The notes under the pieces are model-generated. The model did not search any database. It was not told where the DNA came from and worked only from the letters and a program-made list of their open reading frames with translations. DNA of 64,000 nucleotides. It comes from Stenotrophomonas beteli (GTDB lineage Bacteria > Pseudomonadota > Gammaproteobacteria > Xanthomonadales > Xanthomonadaceae). Below, in pieces: positions 1,758-8,176 of the stretch. The stretch spans positions 124,001 through 188,000 of the forward strand of contig NZ_LLXV01000021.1 in the NCBI RefSeq assembly GCF_001431665.1. The letters are read 5' to 3'. The stretch's first letter is position 1. Each line of letters opens with the position of its first letter. The translations under genes were made by a program, and so were the position numbers.

Positions 1758-2090
1758 TCAACGTTGTCGCAGAGGCGGTCGGATAGTCCTTCCATCCGTG
1801 ATCTGACCACCGGCCACGGGCTCGTAGGGCTCGTAGGGCCCGTAGCCATATTGTTGGATTACATTGCCATTGATGTCTCCCTCGGCCACAACCGAGCCCA
1901 GGGCGTCCGTGTGGATGCCTGTCACCTTGGCCCGGGCAATTACGGATGACGACACGCCAAGGTCAATGAGCAGCACACAGCACAGCCAAGCGCCTGATAC
2001 TCCCAGCTTCCGAATTCGACCTTCAATGCCCCTGAAGCGGGTCGACCCACCGCCTGCAGTTCGCCCGAACCTTCGCATCCGTCCACTCAT
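1758..2090 (-). pseudogene. truncated RHS repeat protein: N-terminus kept, core and toxin lost
   Basis: From the ATG at 2090 the frame encodes a basic N-terminus, a hydrophobic signal-like segment (about residues 31-52), then IHTDALGSVVAEGDINGNVI and a short YGPYEPYEP stretch. IHTDALGS..AE.D..GNVI is the standard opening of the RHS-associated core. In full proteins it runs on through P-GYTGH to the DPxGL core and a variable toxin end. Here the similarity stops at residue about 100 (QITDG) and ten unrelated residues lead to a stop. The hyperconserved core and any toxin are missing, so I read this as a deletion remnant. Two small genes follow on the same strand. Confidence 0.65.
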
Positions 2091-2113
2091 TGAAAGTGCC
2101 GGGCACCACGGGT

Positions 2114-2137
2114 TGCCGGCCAGCGGTCGGGCACTAC
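2114..2137 (-). repeat. SMAG-type REP palindrome (single)
   Basis: Read on the minus strand this begins GTAGTGCC and ends GCTGGCCGGCA, the layout of the GTAG-headed REP elements of Stenotrophomonas. One arm is altered (CCGACC in place of CCGGCC). It lies between the tRNA terminator and the RHS remnant. Confidence 0.65.
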
Positions 2138-2145
2138 CAGGGCAT

Positions 2146-2174
2146 AAAAAAAGCCCCGACCAAGGCCGGGGCTC
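2146..2174 (-). terminator. rho-independent terminator of tRNA-Thr
   Basis: On the minus strand AGCCCCGGCC, a TTGG loop and a matching GGGGCT arm are followed by seven T. It starts 10 bases after the CCA end of the tRNA, so it should end the tRNA transcript and shield the RHS remnant from it. Confidence 0.85.
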
Positions 2175-2183
2175 TTCTACAAC

Positions 2184-2259
2184 TGGTGCCGGAAACAGGA
2201 GTCGAACCTGCGACCTACGCATTACGAATGCGCCGCTCTACCAACTGAGCTATTCCGGC
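2184..2259 (-). tRNA. tRNA-Thr (CGT anticodon)
   Basis: The reverse complement folds as a complete 76-base tRNA. The acceptor stem is GCCGGAA/TTCCGGC. The D arm is GCTC-GAGC, the anticodon stem GCGCA/TGCGT with loop TTCGTAA (anticodon CGT), and the T arm GCAGG-TTCGACT-CCTGT. The CCA end is encoded. It stands between two RHS loci. I saw no second copy of its 3' end in the window that would mark an attachment-site pair. Confidence 0.96.
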
Positions 2260-2318
2260 CTAGCAGGGAATTGTAGGGGGTGCCGGTCAGCAGGTCAATC
2301 GGAGCCGGCCCGCAGACG

Positions 2319-2525
2319 CTATCCCTGCCCCCCTCTGCCACGACGGATCGACTGCACGGTCAGAAAAACAAAGAACAGGCAGAAGAACACGAATCCAGTC
2401 AGGGCAACGTCGTGCATGCCGCCCAGCTGTCCGCTCATGGCCCGGTTCCACAGGTAGCGGACCGCCAGGATGATGATCAGCAGCACCACCACCAGATTGA
2501 CCCACTTCATTTTGGCTCTGAACAT
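2319..2525 (-). CDS. 68-residue two-helix membrane protein after the RHS gene
   Basis: The ATG at 2525 lies three bases after the stop of the RHS gene, so the two are almost certainly cotranslated. An internal ATG at 2510 is an alternative start. Two hydrophobic helices are clear (about residues 8-25 and 41-60), with a short Gly-rich loop between them and a basic C-terminus (IRRGRGG). No family is recognised. Position and size fit a membrane immunity protein or an accessory subunit of the RHS pair; that role is inference. Confidence 0.65.
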   Translation of the reverse strand: MFRAKMKWVNLVVVLLIIILAVRYLWNRAMSGQLGGMHDVALTGFVFFCLFFVFLTVQSIRRGRGGQG

Positions 2526-2528
2526 AGA

Positions 2529-4751
2529 TTACTCGCAGGTGCAGGAATCGTCGGCGGCCTGCTTGGCGCCCTTGATGGTACTCATTGCATCGGAATCTGT
2601 CGCCCTTCCCTTCAGCATTCCGCGCAGGCCACGCAATGCACCGGAGTAGGTCGTGACCTTGGAAGCCATTCGACCAAACTCTGCGCCATGCGCACCCAGC
2701 AGGAACCCTCCCACCTCCTCATAGCTGCTCGGGCGCTCAATGCCGTCGAATGCGGTCATGAAGCCATTGATGCCGTCGTTCATCGTTGCATATCCGTTCG
2801 CTGCCACGGCCAGGGAACCCAGCGCCACTTCCGACTGCTCGCCGCCCGCGGCGATGGCCGCCGTCGACAGTGCCGCTGACATTGACGCGTAGCCTTCAAC
2901 CACATCCGCCACGCCGAGCACCGCTGCCAGCAGGTCGATCTTCTTTTCGTCGTTTCCGCACTCTGCCAGGCCCAGCGGATCAATCCGGCTGAGCGGATTG
3001 CTGCCAACGTAGGCGTAGGTATTGGTGCCTGCCGCCAGCCCCACCGGATCGCTCTGCACGTATCGTGCAATGCTGGCGTCATAGTCGCGGAAGCCGTTGT
3101 ACCACAGCCCGGTCTCCGCATCCTGGTACTGCCCGGGGAAGCCGATGTTCAAGCCACCGATGTCGTCCTGCTGGACGCTGCGGCCAAACGCATAGTTGTA
3201 GGCCTTCCAGACTGTGGCGCGGCCACTGTTGCTGACAAACCCCGGCCGCCCGAGGTGATCGGTATGGATGTAGTTGACCTGCCCGCTTCGCCCCAGCCCG
3301 ACCAGTTCGGCGCCAAACCAGAAGTAGTTCGACCATGCGCCGTTCTTCTGCTCAGCCAGCATCTGGTTCTGCCCGGCGTAGAAGTAGCGGCTGGTTTCGT
3401 TGGCGTTGACTTTTGCCACCCGTTGGCCCTGCGCGTTGAGCACATAGTCGGTGACAAAGCCGCCTGCATTGCTGCGGCTCATGCGGTTGAACGGGTTGTA
3501 GTCGAAGGTGGTGACCCGACTACCTGCCGTCTCGCTGATGCGGTTGCCGAGCGCATCGTACTGATAGACGCGGCTACCATCCTGGTTGGTGTAGTTGAGC
3601 ACCCGGTTGCTGGCCGCGTCGATGCTGTACTGGGTCAGCTGATTTCCGGCCTGGTAGCGGTTGTGGTTGCCGCCAGCATCGTAGGACAGCTGGTTGTTGA
3701 TGCCGAAGCGGGTGAGGCTGGTCAACCGGCTCAGTGCGTCGTAGCCAATGGTCTGTGTCATGTTCGGAGTGACCGCGTCGACGATGCCGGTGATCTCACC
3801 GTCGGCACTGTACTGGTAGTCCCAGTAACTCAACTTCGCACTGTTCGGCCCCCATACCGACATCGCCGTCAGACGTCCGTCCAGGTCATGGTTGTAACCG
3901 CGCACCAGCCCGTTGCCATAGGCCATGCTCGCCCGTGCACCCGTGGCCTTCCACGTGGCCTGACTGATCACCGGGATCGATGTCCCGCCGACCACGGCAG
4001 ACAGGGAGGCAAGATGACCGCCGGCATCATAGCCATAGTTGGCCTTGTCACCATTGGGATAGGTAATCTCGCTGAGCCGGCCGATACCGTCATAGGCGTA
4101 GGTGGTGCTGTAGTCGGTCTGCTGTCCCTGGACGATGGTGAAGTCGCGTCGGATCCAGATCTGGCCACTGGGCACGAACGCAAAATGAGTGGACGAGTCC
4201 GGCGCGGCCAGCCCGCACAACCGGCCTTTGCCCCATGCACACCAGTCATAACTGAACTCGTGCCGCTGCCCTTCCGATTCGATCGAGGACAGCCGCCCCA
4301 GTCCATCGTAGGCATAACCAATAGTGCTGCCATCGTTGCGCGTGGTCACCGTGCGCTGGCCTACCGCGTTGTACTGATGACGGGTGGTGCCGGTGTCCGG
4401 ACTCACCTGCTTGAGCAGCTGACCAAAGCCGTCGTGCTCGTAGGTTGTTGCCAGTCCGCGCGGATCGACCACCTGTATGGGACGATCACCCAGATCATAC
4501 GCCAGGCGTGTCGTGCCGCCGGCGGCGTCGATCGATTGCACCATCCGGCCCAGTGGGTCATAGCTCATCCGGGTAACGCGGTTCTGTGAATCGGTGACCT
4601 GGGTCACCCGCCCTTCTGCGTCGTAGGCATATCGGATGTTCTGGCCGTTGTTGCCGCGCTCGGCCACCACTCGCCCCAACTCGTCGTAGTCGTAGTTGAC
4701 GCTGAACGTCACGGCGTTCAACCCCATCATGGTCAGCGTAATCATGGACAT
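2529..4751 (-). CDS. RHS/YD-repeat protein with hyperconserved core (second half of a split RHS)
   Basis: The ATG at 4751 shares its A with the TGA of the upstream gene (TGATG), which suggests coupled translation; the frame also extends upstream to 4814 inside that gene. The 740-residue product starts at once with YD repeats (YDYDELGRVV, YAYDAEGRVT, MSYDPLGRMV, repeated to about residue 500). It then has the RHS core (YNGFRDYDASIARYVQSDPVGL, about 550-595, ending at IDPLGL). The last 145 residues form an Ala-rich, helical tail ending in CTCE, with no nuclease, deaminase or other toxin motif I know. RHS proteins build a shell round their C-terminal payload. Whether this tail is toxic is open. 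A small membrane protein follows three bases later. Confidence 0.85.
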   Translation of the reverse strand: MSMITLTMMGLNAVTFSVNYDYDELGRVVAERGNNGQNIRYAYDAEGRVTQVTDSQNRVTRMSYDPLGRMVQSIDAAGGTTRLAYDLGDRPIQVVDPRGLATTYEHDGFGQLLKQVSPDTGTTRHQYNAVGQRTVTTRNDGSTIGYAYDGLGRLSSIESEGQRHEFSYDWCAWGKGRLCGLAAPDSSTHFAFVPSGQIWIRRDFTIVQGQQTDYSTTYAYDGIGRLSEITYPNGDKANYGYDAGGHLASLSAVVGGTSIPVISQATWKATGARASMAYGNGLVRGYNHDLDGRLTAMSVWGPNSAKLSYWDYQYSADGEITGIVDAVTPNMTQTIGYDALSRLTSLTRFGINNQLSYDAGGNHNRYQAGNQLTQYSIDAASNRVLNYTNQDGSRVYQYDALGNRISETAGSRVTTFDYNPFNRMSRSNAGGFVTDYVLNAQGQRVAKVNANETSRYFYAGQNQMLAEQKNGAWSNYFWFGAELVGLGRSGQVNYIHTDHLGRPGFVSNSGRATVWKAYNYAFGRSVQQDDIGGLNIGFPGQYQDAETGLWYNGFRDYDASIARYVQSDPVGLAAGTNTYAYVGSNPLSRIDPLGLAECGNDEKKIDLLAAVLGVADVVEGYASMSAALSTAAIAAGGEQSEVALGSLAVAANGYATMNDGINGFMTAFDGIERPSSYEEVGGFLLGAHGAEFGRMASKVTTYSGALRGLRGMLKGRATDSDAMSTIKGAKQAADDSCTCE

Positions 4752-7700
4752 CAGCGGGCTCCTTCCAGAGTGTCCAGCCACACGGGCGGGGTAACGATCA
4801 TCGGTTCCTGACAATCGAGGCTGCCGGGACCACCTGGGCAGTACCAGTCAAGATTCTCCACCACGATGCTCACATAGGGATTCGGCCCCCACGCTGCACC
4901 ACTGGTCGCCATCCGCGCGACGTAGGTGTAAGTCCCGATCCCGACGCCGTTGTGATACGGCGCGACATCGAACTGGAAGGTGGCAACCCCGCCCGGTGGC
5001 ACAGGGGCCGGCAATCCATGCGACTGGGTAAGGAAGTCCTGCCCCCAGGCGAGGTAGGTGTTGCCGTCCCAAGTGACGTTGCCGGTATTGCGTACCTGCG
5101 CGGTCAGGGTGACCTGCTGCCCGTTGTAGATGTGGGTGGAAGACGCGTTGAACGTGATGAACTCCGCATTGCGGACGATCGAAGGAACCGCAAATGCTCC
5201 CGACCGGTTGATGGTCAGATTCGCCTGGCCGGCGGGCGAGATGCCGTGCACATGAATGCCCTTGCCGCCATGGGCCTGGCGAAGATTGGCATCCAGCGGC
5301 AGCTTGAACCAGTAGGCATTGCCCTTGGCCTGGCAGGCATTGGCAACGTTGCCGTCGGTGGGCAGATTGGCGCGCCCGGAAACAGCGAAACTGCCCACAC
5401 CCGCAGGGCCCCCAACGTAGGCATGCACATCGATGGAGTCGTTCACACCCACCGAGCAGGCCCACCCCTCAACCGCGTAGTTGCCCTGCCCATCATGCGT
5501 GACCCCGCCGATATCGCCGACGATCGTGGCCTGCGGTATCGCGAACACGCCGGATCTGTCCAGCGCCCGGTTGTAGTTGCCGCCCTGCGGAGACAAGCCA
5601 TAGATGACGATCTTGCGCCCACCCAGCTGCTGCCGCTGAGCGAGCGTCACCGGCAACTCGAAGCGGTAGGCGTTGCCGCCGGCCTGGCATGCTGCGGCCA
5701 CGCCGCTATCGCTTGCCTTGTTGGCCTGCGTCGCCGCCAGGAACACGCCGCCGTCGGCGTAACCGTGCACTTCGATGGATGCGTTGGAACCGGTAGTGCA
5801 GGCCCAGCCCCGCAGGAACCAGTTCCAGTTTGCGTCGTGGGTGATTTCGTCGATCGAGCCCACCACGGAGCTACCCGCTGGGAAATCGGTGTGAGCGACC
5901 TCTTTGCGGGTAATGTTCGATGCTGCATCGTAGCTGTAGCGTGTCCACGCGAACGTGCCGTCACCAACCGGCACAACCTCCGAAAGCAGACGGCGGGCAG
6001 CATCGTACTCGTAGCGCTCGGTCACGCCATCCGGGCGCGTGATGCTGGCCAGGTTGCCGGCACCATCGTACGCGAAGGTCGTCGTTGCCCAGCTGTTGCC
6101 GAAACTCTCGCGCTGGGTGATGACGCGACCACGGGCATCGTAGACATACTCGATGTTCTGGCCATTGAGCGTGGTAACCCGCGTCGGTTGGCCAAGGCCG
6201 TTGTGACCGCTGTAGGTGACCGTGTGGCCCAACGAATTGACCACACTGACCAGATCACCCTGGGCGTTGTAGGTCGACGTCACATCATCCTGCGCCAGTG
6301 GTCCATCGGTCTTCACCGAGGCGGTCAAGCCATTGCTGTGATAGGTATAGGTGTGGGTGACCGTACGTGCCTGCCCTGTCACGCCACGGCTGCTGAGATT
6401 GCGTGCCGTGGTACTGGCCAGGTTGCCGCGCGCGTCGTACGCATAGACCAGCTCGCTGTCACCGACAACGGTAACCTTCAACGGCCGGTTGCGTGCGGTA
6501 TCCCACTCGTAGGTCGTCGTCCGCTCAGCGCTGCTGCCCACCGCCTCGACCTGCTTCAGCAGGTAGCCTTGGGCGGTGTAGTCGAAATTGATCAGATTGT
6601 CGGCGAAGTCATGCACCAGATCCGGATAGCCATTGCCATCGTAGCTGCGCTCCTTGTAGCTCGCCGCGCAACGGGGCGAGGCATCTCCGGCCACCGATAC
6701 CTGTCGACCATCCTCGTACGAGTAGGTGGTCTTGCGGCCCAGCGGACTGGTTTCCGTTACTTTGATCTTGATCGGGCGCGGCTTGGTTTCCGTCGTACTC
6801 GACAGCTGTACTCCACTGCCTGCGGCGCTGCCCAGGTTCGCGCTACCGCCGTTCAGCTGGATCGGGGACGGCAGGGAACGCGGCTGGTAGCAGATGCGAC
6901 CGTTGCGGGTGTCCTCGCACCAGCCGCGCTCCTCGTCACTGCTTACGCCACCCGGGCGAACCGGCGACGGCGGAGGCGCCACCGGCTCACTGCTCTGCAC
7001 GGTGTAACTGAAGGTGTACCGTTCGACCCCGCCACTGTGCTCGCTGAGCGTCGCCCGCTTGTTCTCGTCGTAGGCAAAGGTGGAATAGCGCACGCCGTTG
7101 AACGACTTGCCGGTCAGGCCTCCCGGGAAACGGCCATCCTCGTAGTGATAGCTGACCGTGGTCGCCGGTGCCCCCGGCAGTATCGTGCTTGCCAGTCGAC
7201 CACGACCGGCACCGAAGACATTGGCCGTATAGGTGTACTGGTAGATGCTGCCAGACGGATCTGTAACCTTCGTGACCTGTCCGCCGGTCCAGGTGAACTG
7301 GACGCTTCGGCCCGATGAGTGGGTGACACTCTGCAGGTACCTGTTGTTGTAGGCGAACGTCCAGGTGACGCCCTGCTCGTTGCGCAACTGGGTGATGTAG
7401 CCTTCGGCGTTGTAGGTTTCCGTGCCACGCTCTTCATTGTGCAGAGTGAACGTGCCATCTGCATTCTTGACGATGTAGGCCACCGCCTGTGCTTTGTTTT
7501 CGTTCCAGCGGCCACTGCCTGCATCGAACTGGAATTTGATACGCCGGCCATCGGGTCGCTGGTTCCATGCCGTGGCCTGGCCGCCGGAGAATGCAAGGGA
7601 GAAGTCGAAATTGCTCAGCCAGTGATTGCCGAACAGGCCCGTCGCACTCCAGTGGTGGTTATAGGTGCGTTGCAGGAACAGGCCCATCTCACCTGCACTG

Positions 7701-8176
7701 GCGAAGTCCACCTCGGGCTCGATCTTGTTACCCGAATAGAGCACCACGGGATTGCCGCGGACGTCTTCCTTGTTGATCCCGCAAAGATCACTGCGATCGT
7801 CGGTCTCCTGCTCCTTGGCGGTCTGCGAAGGCCAGACGCCTCCGTTCCCAAAGCCACCTCCGCCTCCGCCGCCATTGCCTCGTACCCACAACCCGCCCAA
7901 CGTCGGTGTTGAGGTCAAAGGTGGTCGAACGGTGATCCCAGGCAGGCTGGTGGTGCCACCGGTCGGTGGCTTGACCGTGATCCGGCCGAGGTTGGAAGTG
8001 CGTGGTGCAGGGGCGGGACCCGGGCCGGAGCCGGCGCCTCCCTTGTCATCCTTCTTGTAGACGACCTTGGCCGATTTGGCCGTGGAGGGCTCGATGGCCG
8101 CACCACAAACAAACACTGCGAGCGTGGACAACAAAAGCAACCTGGAACGGGACGTACCTGTCACGCGGAGCTTCAT
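4751..8176 (-). CDS. exported RHS protein: DUF6531, YD repeats, tandem GWAC-like domains, Ig-like domain
   Basis: A 1141-residue protein with a signal peptide (residues 1-33) and a Gly/Pro-rich linker including a run of seven Gly (to about 115). An N-terminal RHS domain follows (GNPVVLYSGNKIEPEVDF, DUF6531-like, about 140-210), then YD repeats to about 765. It continues with two roughly 113-residue repeats (about 770-882 and 884-998) that share THD, GWAC, GNAY.F.LP and SG.FA.P marks. After these comes an Ig-like domain resembling the NBR1 type (about 1003-1105) and a Cys-containing tail. There is no RHS core; YD repeats resume in the next, overlapping gene. The pair looks like one RHS protein split by insertion of adhesin-like modules. 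Probably secreted or surface-bound. Confidence 0.85.
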   Translation of the reverse strand: MKLRVTGTSRSRLLLLSTLAVFVCGAAIEPSTAKSAKVVYKKDDKGGAGSGPGPAPAPRTSNLGRITVKPPTGGTTSLPGITVRPPLTSTPTLGGLWVRGNGGGGGGGFGNGGVWPSQTAKEQETDDRSDLCGINKEDVRGNPVVLYSGNKIEPEVDFASAGEMGLFLQRTYNHHWSATGLFGNHWLSNFDFSLAFSGGQATAWNQRPDGRRIKFQFDAGSGRWNENKAQAVAYIVKNADGTFTLHNEERGTETYNAEGYITQLRNEQGVTWTFAYNNRYLQSVTHSSGRSVQFTWTGGQVTKVTDPSGSIYQYTYTANVFGAGRGRLASTILPGAPATTVSYHYEDGRFPGGLTGKSFNGVRYSTFAYDENKRATLSEHSGGVERYTFSYTVQSSEPVAPPPSPVRPGGVSSDEERGWCEDTRNGRICYQPRSLPSPIQLNGGSANLGSAAGSGVQLSSTTETKPRPIKIKVTETSPLGRKTTYSYEDGRQVSVAGDASPRCAASYKERSYDGNGYPDLVHDFADNLINFDYTAQGYLLKQVEAVGSSAERTTTYEWDTARNRPLKVTVVGDSELVYAYDARGNLASTTARNLSSRGVTGQARTVTHTYTYHSNGLTASVKTDGPLAQDDVTSTYNAQGDLVSVVNSLGHTVTYSGHNGLGQPTRVTTLNGQNIEYVYDARGRVITQRESFGNSWATTTFAYDGAGNLASITRPDGVTERYEYDAARRLLSEVVPVGDGTFAWTRYSYDAASNITRKEVAHTDFPAGSSVVGSIDEITHDANWNWFLRGWACTTGSNASIEVHGYADGGVFLAATQANKASDSGVAAACQAGGNAYRFELPVTLAQRQQLGGRKIVIYGLSPQGGNYNRALDRSGVFAIPQATIVGDIGGVTHDGQGNYAVEGWACSVGVNDSIDVHAYVGGPAGVGSFAVSGRANLPTDGNVANACQAKGNAYWFKLPLDANLRQAHGGKGIHVHGISPAGQANLTINRSGAFAVPSIVRNAEFITFNASSTHIYNGQQVTLTAQVRNTGNVTWDGNTYLAWGQDFLTQSHGLPAPVPPGGVATFQFDVAPYHNGVGIGTYTYVARMATSGAAWGPNPYVSIVVENLDWYCPGGPGSLDCQEPMIVTPPVWLDTLEGAR

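Follow-up and report, generated by a model that had tools for sequence, protein, structure and literature searches.

A split RHS-repeat toxin gene in Stenotrophomonas beteli and its relatives, with signal-like starts on both chains

The window analyzed here, a 64,000-nucleotide stretch of Stenotrophomonas beteli contig NZ_LLXV01000021.1, contains an RHS protein divided between two overlapping genes: g1 (4751..8176; 1141 amino acids), which encodes the first part of an RHS shell plus additional modules, and g2 (2529..4751; 740 amino acids), which encodes the second part, a core protease, and a toxin tip. They are followed by g3 (2319..2525), encoding a putative immunity protein of 68 amino acids with two membrane segments; these genes and all of their features described below lie on the minus strand. 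We consider it probable that the locus specifies an antibacterial polymorphic toxin of the RHS/YD-repeat type that is exported via Sec and in which two chains form one closed shell. The two-chain layout has a precedent, since TcB/TcC of the ABC/Tc toxins is a known two-chain RHS shell; the export signals predicted on both halves (on g2, the signal or its trace) set g1-g2 apart. The usual view is that an RHS shell is a single chain around its own toxin, or is made of Tc halves that meet in one compartment. If both halves are exported, they must meet and close around the toxin after crossing the membrane unfolded, and how the shell closes, how the toxin enters, and whether a periplasmic step precedes export become testable questions.

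Complementary halves of one shell

The split layout reported by a first-pass annotation of this DNA is confirmed in the sequence. g1 opens with a Sec-type signal peptide (residues 1-27; 8096..8176), as judged by a home-made rule, and continues into an N-terminal shell part of YD repeats (residues 139-763, 5888..7762; PF05593, E 6.2e-29). At the start of this part, a Pfam scan places DUF6531 (residues 141-215, 7532..7756), which as PF20148 is named the N-terminal plug domain in PMC10684867. g2 begins with a hydrophobic segment (residues 1-17, 4701..4751), a weak, putative short signal peptide, followed by a C-terminal shell part (residues 18-584, 3000..4700) with YD repeats (PF05593, E 1.9e-42). 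An NCBIfam scan identifies the RHS-associated core (TIGR03696, E 7.3e-22; residues ~520-595, 2967..3194) with its predicted self-cleaving DPxG...DPxG motif, of which D568, P569, G571, D591, and G594 are invariant among 12 aligned sequences. The remaining ~145 amino acids (2532..2966), ending in CTCE, form a variable C-terminal domain that is a putative membrane-active toxin.

In predicted folds, g1 aligns to the first part and g2 to the second part of solved single-chain RHS shells, and the two map onto chains F and G of 6l7i. The Pfam and NCBIfam scans assign the DUF6531 plug to g1 alone and the core to g2 alone. The g1-g2 join lies close to the TcB/TcC join: the first aligned TcC residue corresponds to g2 residue 37 with TccC2 and 53-54 with RHS2 and YenC2, while the window break is at ~18. 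Fused relatives in which the halves are directly joined also exist (for example, L073), as a genome survey proposed in the first-pass annotation had been meant to find. Given the complementary folds and a join near that of TcB/TcC, one shell from two chains, as that annotation had suggested, is the best reading of these models, and we hold it with good confidence.

The genes overlap by TGATG, in which the g1 stop TGA and the g2 start ATG have one base in common, behind a strong ribosome site, GGAAGGAG (junction 4749..4766). Because of this arrangement, translation of g1 and g2 is probably coupled; g3 follows g2 after three bases. L060-L063, L066, and L067 (with L062 and L067 read from L040 and L041) share the TGATG overlap and have a GGAG-type ribosome site, L064 has the overlap with a weaker site, and in L065 the genes are 15 bases apart. 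The comparison of junctions covered L102 and L108 in part, with L104 set aside.

Recurrence of the break and the second export signal

Of the 198 genomes of this family that were searched, 140 have an RHS relative of g2. Scanning genomes of named species gave 254 relatives, and by a mechanical rule the best 80 comprise 26 split, 43 fused, and 11 undetermined loci; as these are the best of 254, the split share is not a population estimate. The split loci belong to Stenotrophomonas (8), Lysobacter (6), Dyella (4), Xanthomonas (3), Fulvimonas (2), Frateuria (1), Rhodanobacter (1), and Thermomonas (1), and five further pairs lie beyond the 80 (the window, L043, L044, L045, and L055). Some loci share a genome or strain (L060/L061, L077/L093, L096/L099, and L108/L128), one fused gene is itself interrupted (L110) and another begins at a contig end (L072), and L081, counted as undetermined, has an upstream module-bearing open reading frame (ORF) and may be split. 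Plasmid records with a match to g2 number 1530; the match spans 80% of g2 or more in 18, and 3 contain a place of 60-80% identity. The plasmid matches listed, 15 in number, are 33-36% identical to g2.

The break falls at two main sites. At site A, used by most pairs, it is immediately ahead of the first YD repeat of g2. At site B it is about two repeats later, at g2 residue ~81, in five Rhodanobacteraceae pairs (L124, L128, L131, L134, and L137), and BLAST matches show that g1 carries the extra repeats in L124 and L131. The Thermomonas pair (L104) breaks elsewhere. On a tree of 80 shells, made by a quick method and leaving aside 5 of 85 rows with short matches (L067, L105, L110, L120, and L130), fused proteins are scattered among split ones, and supported branches force at least four changes for site A (24 rows) and at least two for site B (5 rows), any of which may be gains or losses; L104 was entered as undetermined.

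Many second chains have a hydrophobic start. In several Lysobacter and Rhodanobacteraceae loci (L045, L077, L080, L095, L134, and L137) g2 opens with an ordinary-looking signal peptide, while in Stenotrophomonas and Xanthomonas the start is reduced to a hydrophobic stretch of ~16 residues. Directly ahead of the first YD repeat, peak hydropathy over 10 residues is at least 1.9 in 21 of 30 split proteins and in none of 43 fused ones (fused maximum 1.64); only 14 of 8535 control windows attain that value. L067 was excluded from this count because its g2 is interrupted. The nine split proteins below 1.9 are the window (1.75, attained by 92 of the 8535 controls), L060 (1.85), five in which modules stand ahead of the second chain's first YD repeat (L043, L044, L102, L108, and L109), L124, for which the value was computed at a wrong offset, and L104, with its different break near a contig end. 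A home-made signal rule, applied without a control, passes 31 of 33 g2 and 29 of 31 g1 sequences. On the contrast of split proteins with fused ones and controls, the case for a second export signal is good for the group and moderate for the window's own g2, in each case as a prediction from sequence. The first-pass annotation, which noted that g2 lacks a good signal peptide, missed this hydrophobic, signal-like start, which is short and weak here, is a clear signal peptide in many relatives, and appears in none of the 43 fused proteins.

Modules at the break, toxin tip, and g3

Between the shell part and the end of g1 are two repeats of ~115 amino acids (residues ~771-1000, 5177..5866), one of which matches the other in L042 and for which no Pfam family was found at E 0.05. 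These are followed by an NBR1-like Ig domain (residues ~1001-1108, 4853..5176) and a Cys pair (residues 1113 and 1122) with Q-E-P after it (4811..4840). Of 31 split pairs, 15 have a Cys pair followed by Pro in the tail of g1, and in 9 of 43 fused proteins a comparable pair immediately precedes the join, counted as a pattern without a chance control; thus in these cases the break may have fallen behind a tail that single chains have as well.

Modules also form the end of g1 in the nearest relatives of the window. In L043 and L102, a Pfam scan finds NBR1-like Ig domains at the start of g2 instead, and L044 resembles L043 by alignment. Lysobacter gilvus (L096 and L099, also taken as L057 and L058) has a three-gene version, in which a separate protein of 123 residues with an apparent signal peptide is interposed between the two halves, overlapping the start of g2 (L096 6600-6968, L099 7923-8291). 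At site B the modules differ in kind: g1 matches ChitinaseA_N above the cut-off in four of five pairs (below it in L137), and g1 of L128 has an fn3 match below the cut-off. The adhesin-like modules noted by the first-pass annotation are present at this break, but by comparison of sequences they are unnecessary for the split, and either chain can hold them. Modules as the cause of the split were considered and rejected: no module was seen in the split pair L080, related ones occur within the single chain of fused L088, and in L043, L102, and L044 they are located on the second chain.

C-terminal tips vary among otherwise similar proteins, a trait of polymorphic toxins. Tips are also common to split and fused shells (L065/L087, 74% identity; L095/L092, 68%), a sharing that speaks for one and the same function of both forms. 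For the window's tip there is no Pfam or NCBIfam match, and two of ten scanned tips have a Pfam name, Tlde1 (L061) and Ntox37 (L081). The same tip type, 37-46% identical to that of the window, is found in split L063 and L068-L070 and in fused L071-L073. In all seven, an ORF located -22 to +16 bases downstream encodes a small protein (67-84 residues) for which one or two membrane segments are predicted. Different ORFs follow in six further Stenotrophomonas pairs whose tips are of other types, and one of these (L062, 103 amino acids) also encodes a membrane protein. Among ORFs of 21 loci, four with the window tip type, g3 has no BLAST match at E 1e-3, so its link to the other small ORFs rests on position and layout. 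From this pattern we are fairly confident that g3 provides immunity to the tip; of the two roles first proposed for it, immunity fits better and anchoring less well. As a component of the split system g3 was rejected, given that a comparable ORF accompanies this type of tip in split as well as fused shells.

Proposed mechanism, alternatives, and known systems

In the mechanism that we propose, g1 would supply the plug at the N-terminus and begin the spiral, and g2 would complete the spiral and contribute a C-terminal plug that holds the self-cleaving core, as well as the toxin tip, enclosed within the shell. Each half would cross the inner membrane via Sec on its own signal peptide, apparent in the sequences of many relatives and weaker for g2 of the window; the halves would then meet in the periplasm and close around the tip, which the core would cut free. 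We lean slightly towards Sec export of both halves with assembly in the periplasm. Exit of the shell by type II secretion is a tentative suggestion, by analogy with Bcn-A, and two GspD genes above the cut-off are present in the host genome. The Ig-like modules at the join would point outward and bind target surfaces, and g3 would lie in the inner membrane and give immunity to a membrane-active tip. A wider proposition, on which we are evenly divided, is that RHS shells can form outside the cytoplasm out of halves that were exported separately, and that in Xanthomonadales the shell gene has been cut several times, mostly in a short stretch of the spiral near the Tc cut, with second chains gaining signal peptides and Ig-like modules coming and going at the free ends; in Lysobacter gilvus they would make up a third protein for export. 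If so, the shell has a natural seam for opening, closing, and decorating; this seam would be a natural place to attach binding modules, and its recurrence would provide many natural replicates.

Several observations weigh against this interpretation. The g1 model is moderate (pLDDT 76.0, pTM 0.58, 25 sequences), and Foldseek superposes the whole g1 model poorly (TM 0.14-0.33 relative to query length, root-mean-square deviation 28-43, for the ten best RHS rows and the next one), the good g1 scores stemming from a second aligner. The g1 and g2 ranges overlap by ~90 residues on 8qjd_B and 8uxt, which means either that the composite exceeds those shells in length or that the register of the repeats is wrong. 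The correlated divergence of the two chains, computed without L060, L067, and L104 (and, for its figure, without L069, L070, and L099), can be explained by plain co-inheritance as well. The signal segment of g2 in the window is short, lacks positive charge, and was assessed by home-made rules only, one of which selected an upstream TTG over the ATG. Finally, Lysobacter lactosilyticus (L091) has a g2-like gene with its own hydrophobic start and a membrane-protein-like ORF upstream, and no g1 was found adjoining it; a search of that genome for a partner in trans returned only g1-like pieces adjoining another RHS gene.

The L091 gene would fit a reading in which no joint shell forms and each chain acts alone, g1 as an adhesin-like half-shell that is secreted and g2 as an open toxin carrier of its own, and it is also true that we infer assembly of the two chains from complementary folds and fused relatives. 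We nevertheless find this improbable, as the chains occupy different parts of the same solved shells, divide plug and core between them, and are united in fused relatives, and as the halves are adjacent in 26 of 80 loci. A somewhat unlikely alternative, confined to the window's clade, is that the g2 signal does not work and that g2 is exported only with g1, or that the complex forms in the cytoplasm. The short, uncharged N-terminus would be consistent with this, and YenTc holotoxins are described as assembled in lysing cells and freed by lysis (PMC10847046); however, the hydrophobic start is retained in Stenotrophomonas and Xanthomonas despite changed letters, and the many relatives with signal peptides of their own weaken the earlier suggestion that g2 needs g1 for export. 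Sec translocates unfolded chains, and the clear Sec-type signal on g1 therefore disfavors export of a preformed shell.

Type VI secretion of an RHS effector is very improbable here. Descriptions of the nearest solved shells link them to type VI secretion, and the host genome contains one type VI sheath gene, a further point against our proposal, but g1 has a Sec-type signal instead, and no PAAR or other type VI domain was found in it by Pfam and NCBIfam (E 0.1). Scarcely credible is a fused gene broken by sequencing error or decaying into a pseudogene. True interruptions do exist, in g2 of L067 (also L041), in g1 of L060, and in the fused gene of L110. Against this stand the conserved overlap with its ribosome site, the two main break sites, the hydrophobic signal starts past the break, and frames that are open on both sides in divergent species. 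The possibility of an error at the junction, raised in the first-pass annotation, was rejected on this recurrence and the signal-like starts after the break; of the 26 split loci, L065 is in a complete genome and L069 in a chromosome-level assembly.

Contrary to the first impression that the layout was without precedent, TcB/TcC is a two-chain RHS shell (PMC11067744) that breaks inside the YD repeats near the same place. In TcB/TcC (YenB/YenC2, TcdB1/TccC2), as predicted for g1-g2, two chains make a closed shell, and the second contains the self-cleaving core and a variable tip. Unlike g1, the first Tc chain includes SpvB and a beta-propeller, for which Pfam gives no match in g1 (E 0.1), where only ~140 residues precede DUF6531; the Sec-type signal of g1, the signal-like g2 start, and the Ig modules at the break in turn distinguish our pair. 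Type VI RhsA, Tse5, and their relatives are described as YD shells with a DUF6531 plug at one end, an aspartyl-protease core, and an enclosed tip, pore-forming in Tse5 (PMC8765631, PMC10684867). They differ from g1-g2 in being encoded by one gene with a type VI-loading N-terminus. To our knowledge they carry no Sec signal.

Sec-exported RHS toxins of the WapA type have a signal peptide and, as far as is known, are single chains. Such exported polymorphic toxins resemble our locus in combining RHS repeats, a variable toxin tip, and an immunity gene (PMC12704120, PMC3482391), the last being putative for g3. From the same bacterial family as our locus comes Bcn-A, an RHS bacteriocin of Xanthomonas perforans found in the supernatant, whose activity disappears in an xpsD mutant (type II secretion) and whose downstream immunity gene has a product predicted in the inner membrane (PMC7259588), as proposed here for g3. 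Its main chain is, in contrast, one protein of 1398 amino acids, termed devoid of a signal sequence in that report, and ORF2 and ORF4 are also required (PMC7259588). Among the matches listed in a literature search by titles and abstract openings, with most subscription journals outside its scope, there was no description of a two-gene Sec-exported RHS shell.

The surroundings of the locus resemble an acquired island. Its 2-kb bins over 2001-8000 have a G+C content of 0.615-0.627, the window minimum (0.629-0.703 elsewhere), and the operon ends ~60 bases from a tRNA-Thr (CGT) gene (2184-2259, minus strand). Past this gene are an apparent short RHS-core fragment, judged by eye (~1790-1990, minus strand), and then ORFs of 132 (1363-1761) and 123 (991-1362) amino acids, also on the minus strand, without Pfam matches at E 0.05, which are possibly old immunity genes. 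The same genome encodes a second, single-chain RHS protein of 1494 amino acids, with DUF6531 and a C-terminal AHH nuclease match (L039 6120-10604, minus strand).

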